Assembly: GCF_020567425.1 (NCBI RefSeq)
Contig: NZ_JAJCVJ010000001.1
Coordinates: 124,001 to 188,000 of the forward strand
Length of the DNA stretch: 64,000 nucleotides
Direction: 5' to 3'
From: Salinirubrum litoreum
GTDB taxonomy: Archaea; Halobacteriota; Halobacteria; Halobacteriales; Haloferacaceae
Under the pieces are notes generated by a model. The model saw only the letters and a program-made list of their open reading frames with translations, was not told where the DNA came from and searched no databases. Position 1 is the stretch's first letter. Each line of letters begins with the position of its first letter. The translations under genes and the position numbers were made by a program. Positions 15,052 to 59,167 of this stretch are shown here, piece after piece.

Positions 15052-15183
15052 ACGCCCTCCTACTCGCCCCGGCGGTAAAAGCCGTCGGAGTCGGTCTCGG
15101 CGTGTGTACTGGTCGAATGTTGTCGGATGCGTGTTCGGTTTCGGGTGGTGGTTTTGTGGAGTGATCGGTGCGAGAGTTCTGTT

Positions 15184-15420
15184 CGGGGCGCGCTACAATC
15201 GCAACTGTGACAGCAACAGCATCCGCGACAGCAACGCTACGATTGCTAGCGCACCGACGAAACGACCGCGACAGCACAGCACCGCGACCGCGACAGCAAC
15301 CGCACCGCTACTCGTGCTAGCGCACGGAACCGCGATAGCGACAGCAACCGCGACAGCAGACAGCACCAGCACCGCTACTCGTCGTAGCGCGAGGAACCGC
15401 ACCCGCGACAGCACCGCACC
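15184..15420. repeat. CGACAGCAAC-rich low-complexity tract with three related hairpins
   Basis: About 235 bp made largely of GCGACAGCAACCGCGACAGC-like text. Within it three related stem-loops recur about 70 bp apart: CGCTACGATTGCTAGCG (from 15235), CGCTACTCGTGCTAGCG (from 15306) and CGCTACTCGTCGTAGCG (from 15373), each with CGCTA pairing with TAGCG. No coding pattern is visible. Confidence 0.7.
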
Positions 15421-15733
15421 TCGAACCTCCCCAGCCTCGGCAGACGCTCTCGGCACCGCCCGCGTCTGCCTCCCTCGCACGCGTTCCTCGCGCGCGCCGA
15501 CCGCACCTGCCTGACCGGAAATTCGACTCCCGTCACACGCACCAGTCGAACGGGCTGGCGCGACCTCCGTGTCGCGCACTTCGGCGGCGTGTAGCCGCCT
15601 CAGGCGAGCCGACGGTCGCAGGGAGGCGCTCACGCTGAAATCGACTGGTCCACCGAGAGTTGCGTGATGGGTCGCAGAGTTCGGGTGGAACTGAAAGGGG
15701 CCGGCGGTCTCGTGAGGGAACCGAACGAGACGT

Positions 15734-15885
15734 TGGAGAGCTTTGCTCTCCAGTACTCTCGACCCTGCCCCGGCGCCGGTAGCACCGCAAAGAGGCGAGC
15801 GAGCTTGCTCGCTCGCCGACTGAGAAGCGTGGTTCGAGAGACGCCGTGGCGTCTCTCGTCATCACGAGAGAGCTTCGCTCTCTCG
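15734..15885. repeat. four perfect hairpins in copy A
   Basis: Stems: TGGAGAGC/GCTCTCCA at 15734-15752; GGCGAGCGAGC pairing with GCTCGCTCGCC at 15794-15817; CGAGAGACGCC with GGCGTCTCTCG at 15835-15858; CGAGAGAGC with GCTCTCTCG at 15865-15885. Loops are two to four bases. The last two, with their flanks, are nearly identical to hairpins at 58464-58515 on the other strand. Confidence 0.85.
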
Positions 15886-15917
15886 AACGACACCAAGTCG
15901 CGGCAGGTCGAGAGCGC

Positions 15918-16133
15918 GGGGGCTTTCACCTCTCGTCGTCCGCGACTCACTCGCCAGAAACCGCGTCTCGCGGGGGCTTTCACCTCTTGTCGTCCGCAAC
16001 TCACTCGACCACAGAGACAACGTTCGAGAGCTTTCACCCCTCGTTGTCTGCGACTAATTCAGCAAAGACCACATCGTGTAGGGGCTTTCACCTCTCGTTC
16101 TCTCCAACCGATTCGACAGAGTCCCCACCATCG
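15918..16133 (+). repeat. four 54-bp tandem repeats
   Basis: The word CTTTCACC occurs at 15923, 15977, 16031 and 16085, exactly 54 bp apart. In each unit about 36 bp are conserved (GGGGGCTTTCACCTCTCGTC, then a CGCGACTCACTCG-like part) and about 18 bp vary. The array ends ten bases before the stop codon of the PAC2 gene. It is not a CRISPR array: the variable part is too short and the repeats are themselves diverged. Confidence 0.85.
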
Positions 16134-25480: not shown

Positions 25481-25620
25481 TGATGGATCGCAGACTCGGG
25501 TGGGACCGAGAGGGGCCGGCGATCTCGTGAGAGAACGAACGAGACGCTGGAGGCTCTCGTCTCTCGTCGGTCACCGTTCCGGGTAGACAGAGTTCACCCC
25601 ACGACCCGATTCGGCACCGA
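25481..25620 (+). repeat. composite dispersed element, short copy B
   Basis: Box 2 (25481-25531, with GGTGGGACCGAGAGGGGCCG) matches copy A box 2 in about 45 of 52 positions by eye, and the next 20 bases (GAACGAACGAGACGCTGGAG) also match copy A. Box 1 and the clean hairpins are missing; a weak box 3 relative, GTTCACCCCACGACCCGATT, follows. It lies in the 231-bp gap between two converging genes. Confidence 0.65.
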
Positions 25621-58404: not shown

Positions 58405-58876
58405 TGTCGAGAACGAGAGGTGAGAGCCCCCGGCGTCTCGATTGTCCGCGACGTCCTGTCGTTCGAGAGAGCGAAGCTCTCTCGTGGTGACGAGAGACGC
58501 CGTCGGCGTCTCTCGAACCACGCGCTTCCCTCAGGCTGGCGGGTAAGCCCGCCAGCCTGCAGTCCAGTGTCGTCGGGCGACCCGAGAGTCGCCCGACTGC
58601 TGGCGGGACCTCCGGTCCCGTTCTGTCGTCGGCGCGCCGCGCCGACTGCCAGCGAGACCCTCGGTCTCGCTCTGTCACCGGCGCGGCGCGCCGGTTTCCT
58701 GCGGGACAGCCGGTCCCGCTCTGCTCACGAGACCGCCGGCCCCGTTCAGTCCCACCCGACGATGTGACGACCCGTCGTGCACCTCCCGGTGGACCAGTCG
58801 CTTTCAGCGTCGTGCCTACCTGCGACCGGTGGCGCGGCATGAAAGCCGCGCCAGCCCGGTCGACTGGTGCGTGTGT
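58405..58876 (-). repeat. composite dispersed element, copy C
   Basis: Read on the minus strand, the boxes of copy A occur in the same order: box 1 at 58787-58876 (with ACCAGTCG at 58793 and CGACTGGT at 58861 as inverted ends, GCCAGCCCGG between), box 2 at 58724-58767, a run of hairpins 58464-58719, and one copy of box 3 (GGGGGCTCTCACCTCTCGT) near 58410-58430. It fills the gap between two converging genes. No protein is predicted. Confidence 0.75.
58464..58719. repeat. run of nine perfect hairpins in copy C
   Basis: Stem-loops (total span): 58464-58484 (9-bp stem), 58491-58515 (11), 58532-58559 (12, loop TAAG), 58572-58597 (10), 58604-58620 (7), 58628-58646 (7), 58651-58671 (9), 58677-58695 (8), 58701-58719 (7). 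Short linkers often include CTG. The sequences of the stems differ from one another, so this is not a simple tandem repeat. Confidence 0.85.
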
Positions 58877-58996: not shown

Positions 58997-59167
58997 TCAG
59001 CGCAGTTCCTTCCACTCGGAGCCACACTCCGGACACGTCCTGACCGAGAACACCTCGTCGGGGTCGTTCTTCTTCTTCAGCGTCTTCTCACAGTCCGCGC
59101 AGTTCAGTCGCTCGTAGGTGTCCTTCATCAGTTCCCCGTCGCGCAGACCCTTCCGCGTCGATTTCAT
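58997..59167 (-). CDS. HVO_0758-like zinc-finger mini-protein
   Basis: 56 residues starting MKSTRKGLRDGELMKDTYER. Two CxxC pairs (CADC at about 23-26 and CPEC at 46-49) bind one zinc. The basic N-terminus and fixed spacing match the haloarchaeal HVO_0758-type family. Such small zinc-finger proteins are common in haloarchaea; the role is not known. Its 3' end faces element copy C. Start taken at ATG 59167; the long frame upstream is a shadow of the MFS gene. Confidence 0.85.
   Translation of the reverse strand: MKSTRKGLRDGELMKDTYERLNCADCEKTLKKKNDPDEVFSVRTCPECGSEWKELR

Follow-up and report, generated by a model that had tools for sequence, protein, structure and literature searches.

The window analysed here, a stretch of 64,000 nucleotides of the Salinirubrum litoreum genome, contains three intergenic copies (A, B and C) of a non-coding element composed of recurrent boxes and hairpins. 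Their parts are as follows:

15426..15436, minus strand: core of module X of copy A, GGCTGGGGAGG
15534..15660, plus strand: 5' domain of copy A, type I (box 1 of the initial annotation), an inverted repeat CCAGTCGA..TCGACTGGTCCACC with inner hairpins
15684..15716, plus strand: box 2 of copy A, whose conserved GGTGGAACTGAAAGGGGC (15684-15701) is the 5' foot of the main hairpin
15699-15716, plus strand: GGCCGGCGGTCTCGTGAG, box 2 of copy A as initially annotated, overlapping the conserved stretch 15684-15701
15717..15906, plus strand: inserted and interior hairpins of copy A, within the main stem
15907..16092, plus strand: 3' arm and box 3 array of copy A, GGGGGCTTTCACC plus three degenerate repeats
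25499..25558, plus strand: copy B, a short form with box 2 (25499-25516), a stem-loop and box 3 GGAGGCTCTC (25549-25558)
58790..58875, minus strand: 5' domain of copy C, type I, CACACGCACCAGTCGAC..GCGACTGGTCCACC
58739..58756, minus strand: box 2 of copy C, GGTGGGACTGAACGGGGC, its foot partly decayed
58432..58738, minus strand: interior hairpin chain and 3' arm of copy C
58419..58431, minus strand: box 3 of copy C, GGGGGCTCTCACC

The initial annotation had described copies A and C as a succession of box 1, box 2, hairpins and box 3, and this is the order found in the sequence. A single hairpin has box 2 as its 5' foot and box 3 as its 3' foot (GAAAG / CTTTC), and the variable hairpins of the window copies sit inside this long stem. 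Copy B possesses both boxes as annotated, but its box 3 is not the weak version it had been taken for, as the change from CTTTC to CTCTC is matched by a change from GAAAG to GAGAG in box 2; this compensated lower stem is part of a match to our covariance model R1 at 25498-25564 (E 8.6e-6). The same model matches copy A at 15683-15933, and the plus strand of this copy has a fold z of -5.85 over 15534-16010. The feet of copy C have decayed to GAACG / CTCTC, and box 3 of copy A is a tandem array with a 54-bp period (starts at 15918, 15972, 16026 and 16080).

Two further features adjoin the copies. Upstream of copy A (15180-15420) lies a low-complexity tract of ~240 bp of the CGACAGCAACAGCACCGC type, G-poor on the plus strand, and such tracts are also present ahead of many other S. 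litoreum copies. Directly before copy C, a small gene of 56 codons (58997-59167, minus strand) codes for a zinc-ribbon-like CxxC..CxxC protein.

Layout of the element in the S. litoreum genome

The S. litoreum genome (4.06 Mb, five contigs) contains about 68 copies of the element, taken as the sequence stretches around search matches. The 18-base box 2 of the initial annotation, which marks one insertable hairpin cassette, occurs 18 times with at most one mismatch, while an overlapping 18-mer from the box 2 core, GGTGGRACTGAAAGGGGC, occurs 59 times and its reversed control never, which is far more often than chance would give. A 197-bp query from copy A retrieved about 40 loci at E<1e-20, and the box 3 part gave 40 good places, several of them new. 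Around these, 70 box 2 sites were read (up to 3 mismatches; at least one is a chance match inside a coding gene). Homology between copies extends from about -450 to +300 relative to box 2.

The element is longer in S. litoreum than elsewhere, and includes a 5' domain, which is of type I in 43 copies and of type II (CAGTCGGGGAGG) in 22, as well as module X, insertable hairpin cassettes and the 54-bp box 3 array. The core of module X lies upstream of 43 of 67 S. litoreum copies, on the opposite strand; in other genera it immediately precedes box 2 and shares its strand. Module X is itself a second repeated structured piece, made of GGCTGGGGAGG and a hairpin (15426-15510 of the window, minus strand), and it occurs without the element at one orthologous site in two other genomes (G177 and G080). 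The flanks are cleaner in genome G095, with units of ~27 bp before box 2 and of 53-57 bp after it; every downstream unit contains a repeat of the 3' arm. About ten S. litoreum copies have an uncompensated GAACG foot, and in about 15 copies box 2 is fused to box 3 by a precise loss of the hairpin. Such an exact loss of the entire hairpin, noted at five loci, leaves GGTGGGACTGAAAGGGGCCGGGGGCTTTC or a near form, with box 2 and box 3 intact. Paired elements in opposite orientation, with their box 2 ends ~38-46 bp from each other, were noted at seven other loci.

No gene was found inside the hairpin that would denote an autonomous copy, searching out to 6 kb, and no recurrent transposase is present among the neighbour genes of the copies. 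A CRISPR-like reading of the box 3 arrays was rejected, as the 'spacers' are shared and diverge in the way tandem duplicates do. A coding reading also seems improbable: the array spacings are often multiples of 3, but the frames inspected by eye contain stops.

In the window, each of the three copies faces a gene running towards it, and it had been proposed that copies always point at the 3' end of such a gene. This rule does not hold in the genome at large, where 35 of the 68 S. litoreum copies have a converging downstream gene and 33 have one that points away, nor elsewhere, with 50 converging against 79 not among 129 foreign loci (genes being called by codon usage, at a threshold that misses tiny ones such as 58997-59167 beside copy C). 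The three out of three in the window is chance. No copy lies inside a called gene among the 129 scoreable foreign ones, and some lie between divergent genes. A terminator-like insulator at gene 3' ends would suit the window copies and the pyrimidine-rich box 3 that follows the stem, but is made very unlikely by these same orientation counts and by the copies placed between divergent genes.

Covariation and strandedness of the hairpin core

The invariant part of the element is a hairpin of ~120 nt with feet GAAAGGGGC (box 2) and GGGGCTTTC (box 3), between which are found an internal loop of facing G runs, a variable complementary stem and a conserved interior, GACGACGYAAGCACCGCAG .. GAGGAGCGCAGCGAG. 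A G-quadruplex (GGGTGGG, GGGG, GGGGG) was considered and set aside: plasmid copies break the G runs, and an upstream CCACC can pair with GGTGGG.

Among 191 foreign copies, the twelve bases beside the feet pair at 10/12 or better in 83%, against 6.7% for mismatched partners, and the 159 paired copies display 127 distinct 5' arms. The contrast is weaker among S. litoreum copies (66% versus 32%) because these have fewer arm types and many contain an inserted cassette. When 60 foreign cores are aligned, 27 pairs emerge, 21 of which have changes on both sides, and 93.5% of cells are paired against 71.5% in shuffles. The initial annotation had suggested building a covariance model and looking for covariation, and this turns out to be strong, with a score of 0.519 against 0.153 in shuffled and at most 0.079 in slid controls. 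Covariation extends to the lower stem, almost invariant as this is, with GAGAG/CTCTC in copy B and CAAAG/CTTTG in another genus.

When pairs are chosen by Watson-Crick complementarity only, which provides an unbiased cut, the plus strand presents 65 G.T against 17 A.C mismatches (7 against 3 in S. litoreum alone). The plus strand is therefore the strand that folds, as an RNA would, and RNA would be the simplest reason for such a fold. Covariation beyond controls and wobble pairs on one strand are what is expected of a structured RNA. Alternatively, the hairpin may be selected or regenerated as DNA, for example by template switching in palindromes, and its covariation would then be a by-product of quasi-palindrome correction. 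The precise loss of whole hairpins, the tandem arrays on both sides of the core and the fact that palindromes are mutation hot spots fit such a DNA-level process; however, strand-symmetric copying does not predict the 65:17 excess of G.T over A.C, and the sequence of the interior loop is conserved as well, so that we hold this explanation to be quite improbable.

The stem appears to change while remaining paired at a single site. At a topA-endA-like locus (names read off translations) of four related Natrinema/Haloterrigena genomes, the neighbours align well and the feet are identical, and the arms differ yet are complementary in each species (TTCCGGGCTCGG/CCGAGCCCGGAA; TTGCGCCCTCGG/TCGAGGGCGCAA; TGGCGCGCTCGG/CTGAGCGTGCCA; TGACTCGGTCCGG/CCGGAGCGAGTCA). 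From these sequences, the differences would represent compensation in place, gene conversion from another copy being also possible.

Distribution, ends and mobility

The element is dispersed across the order Halobacteriales. Among 196 of its genomes, 85 contain GGTGGRACTGAAAGGGGC, the highest count being 62 copies (in G016), and no reversed control contains it. The covariance model matches 47 of 295 genomes sampled from the phylum, all of them within the order of S. litoreum, and recovers at least 10 copies in genomes that lack the exact 18-mer. Many haloarchaea carry the boxes in the same order, as the initial annotation would have it for a single element. No match was found in viral contigs or phage records. 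In Rfam, the window has no match at gathering score and eight loci searched with the cut-off relaxed to E 1 yielded no credible match on the element, and a search for its sequence in the literature, with a coverage of mainly open-access papers, returned one unrelated match. The statement that no described family has this layout is in line with these searches, neither Rfam nor the papers searched containing a family with the same fold.

Relatives of the core occur in ninety plasmid records from haloarchaea, in a single copy in most of the listed ones; these are recovered by the covariance model with E 1e-17 to 7e-5, and most of the records examined have no annotation on the element. In several of the plasmids that we opened, the core is flanked on one side by an OB-fold DNA-binding gene and on the other by a small converging gene; in further ones it lies beside other genes of a similar backbone, and one carries an ordinary dispersed copy. 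Many large haloarchaeal plasmids have a single diverged hairpin in a conserved place beside the OB-fold gene (seven such loci were noted), which may represent a domesticated copy.

In other haloarchaeal genomes the core forms the interior of miniature inverted-repeat elements with 17-bp ends (TIRs), GGNNGTGTTCAGATAAG. These are present in G208, in G209 and at one locus of a further family (L416), and the copies of G015 carry the left end. The TIR 13-mer GTGTTCAGATAAG (at most one mismatch) occurs 114 times in G208 and 99 times in G209, often as inverted pairs, with no occurrence of the control. In all the loci read there are 41 TIR pairs 70-500 bp apart, and 39 of them enclose the core. Direct repeats of 8 bp outside the pairs match at 6/8 or better in 14 of these 41 pairs, all in foreign genomes, against 0.2 expected from mismatched flanks. 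They are seen only at a spacing of exactly four bases on each side, and the ends are therefore the 17 bp of GGNNGTGTTCAGATAAG, with 8-bp duplications. The TIR-bounded elements (120-425 bp) are too short for a transposase gene and have none.

A 697-bp ISH14-type IS with ends GGCACTGTTCAGATAAGCG / GGCATTGTTCAGATTAGC, which closely resemble these TIRs, and with 8-9-bp duplications is present in G095, its size and duplication length agreeing with the listing of ISH14 and ISH29 (PMC6807381). Four near-identical copies of this IS, with target duplications, appear to have been recently active. Matches to PF13610 were found in G095 and G030 only, one of those in G030 being below cut-off, and divergent ones can be missed by this search; G000, G208 and G209 gave no match, so that no transposase is seen beside most copies. 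IS1595 was rejected as the source of the transposase, with one match in nine genomes (G015) and no matching ends there.

In foreign genomes, orthologous sites hold the element in one species and lack it in others. At one of them (L284), a spacer of 436 bp with the element in G095 corresponds to 81 bp without it in G132, the flanking non-coding bases aligning up to the break, and other congeners hold other fillers or module X. IS-related TIRs, 8-bp duplications, the lack of a transposase gene and filled and empty sites are thus all found in foreign genomes, as in MITEs. The same ends are not found on the copies of S. litoreum, where TIR scores are no better than those of the reversed control, nor on those of G095. 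The window copies therefore belong to the family by their core and not by their ends, and for S. litoreum mobility and its vehicle are inferred.

These ends also bear on a possible relationship with TnpB guide RNAs (omega RNAs) or IS605-derived elements (PATEs). The element is structured and multi-copy, IS605 elements are common in halophiles and the S. litoreum genome contains 15 TnpB genes. However, an omega RNA is encoded at the 3' end of tnpB, and the 12 TnpB loci read contain neither an exact GGGGCTTTC nor a plausible box 2 (one chance match with four mismatches); foreign copies also carry TIRs and 8-bp duplications, which PATEs lack (PMC3119063). We therefore regard this relationship as extremely unlikely.

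The copies might instead be stand-alone non-coding RNA genes, a new trans-acting class that was amplified, with the MITE form as a later capture. Deep covariation, strand-specific wobble, the apparent compensation in place, the retention of the core where TIRs were lost and the single copy at the same site next to the OB-fold gene on many plasmids are all consistent with this. Against it, a TATA-like box occurs at a shared position in only 5 of 22 type II and none of 43 type I S. litoreum copies, copies are present or absent between congeners, and copy number is very variable. On balance we consider such RNA genes unlikely.

Interpretation and comparison with known systems

Taken together, the window elements probably represent a pan-haloarchaeal, MITE-like family of non-autonomous mobile elements with an RNA-type fold, resembling BOX and ERIC. 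The initial annotation had seen in them one element, either a structured RNA, a mobile element or a terminator-like insulator: the unity of the element and the first two options are supported, while the insulator and the link with converging genes are not. In genomes with TIRs, an ISH14-type transposase (archaeal 'IS6') would have moved the elements in trans. The S. litoreum copies would be older or would have used a different vehicle, their ends being no longer seen, and the element would have grown there into a composite of ~750 bp by addition of hairpins and tandem repeats. Less surely, the fold may act as RNA in read-through transcripts, as a stability or processing site of the type proposed for nemis, ERIC and BOX, which would explain both the strand bias and the compensation in place. 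A plain decaying MITE would not predict that the core persists where the TIRs are gone.

A more far-reaching possibility, which we put forward as doubtful, is that of a new RNA class restricted to Halobacteria and very widespread there, with dozens of copies per genome, carried by, and perhaps controlling, an ISH14-type transposition system. Its stem would turn over freely with pairing enforced, and one box 2 strand would choose among several repeated 3' arms (54-nt units) and repeated upstream units (27-nt).

The element explains part of the intergenic DNA of haloarchaea, about 68 copies of ~750 bp amounting to ~50 kb in S. litoreum, and the covariance model detects the family in genomes missed by plain sequence searches. 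Should the fold work at the RNA level, haloarchaea, which are genetically tractable, would possess an archaeal equivalent of BOX and ERIC for which selection on the fold is strongly supported.

Both bacteria and archaea are known to harbour small mobile elements of a broadly similar kind. BOX elements of Streptococcus pneumoniae are intergenic and non-autonomous, built from box modules whose tandem units vary in number, and form a stable stem-loop. The haloarchaeal element shares all these traits with BOX, from which it differs in its unrelated sequence and host, copy structure and ends. ERIC, RU-1 and Correia/nemis are short intergenic mobile repeats that fold as RNA and have a proposed function in transcript processing. 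The haloarchaeal element is likewise short, intergenic and mobile, with an RNA-type fold, but its sequence is unrelated and its stem varies freely with near-perfect compensation. The features of BOX/ERIC-type repeats that it displays are mobility, intergenic position and fold. The RU class of repeats is treated in PMC2759123.

Closer in host are the MITEs, PATEs and SMRs of Haloquadratum walsbyi, which are also transposase-free mobile repeats of a haloarchaeon, the MITEs having IS-like ends and target duplications, and the PATEs being defined by near-terminal IS605-type palindromes without inverted ends or target duplication (PMC3119063). The present element differs from them in its conserved covarying core, of which the parts consulted of that paper show no equivalent, and from PATEs in its inverted ends and duplications. 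Finally, IS of the ISH14/ISH15/ISH29 type (archaeal 'IS6' group) and their MITEs share with the element of several haloarchaea 17-bp ends of the form GGNN(G/C)TGTTCAGATAAG and 8-bp duplications. These ends are unseen in S. litoreum copies, and compared with the IS the element is shorter (120-425 versus 697 bp), has no transposase gene, and contains a conserved, covarying hairpin interior.
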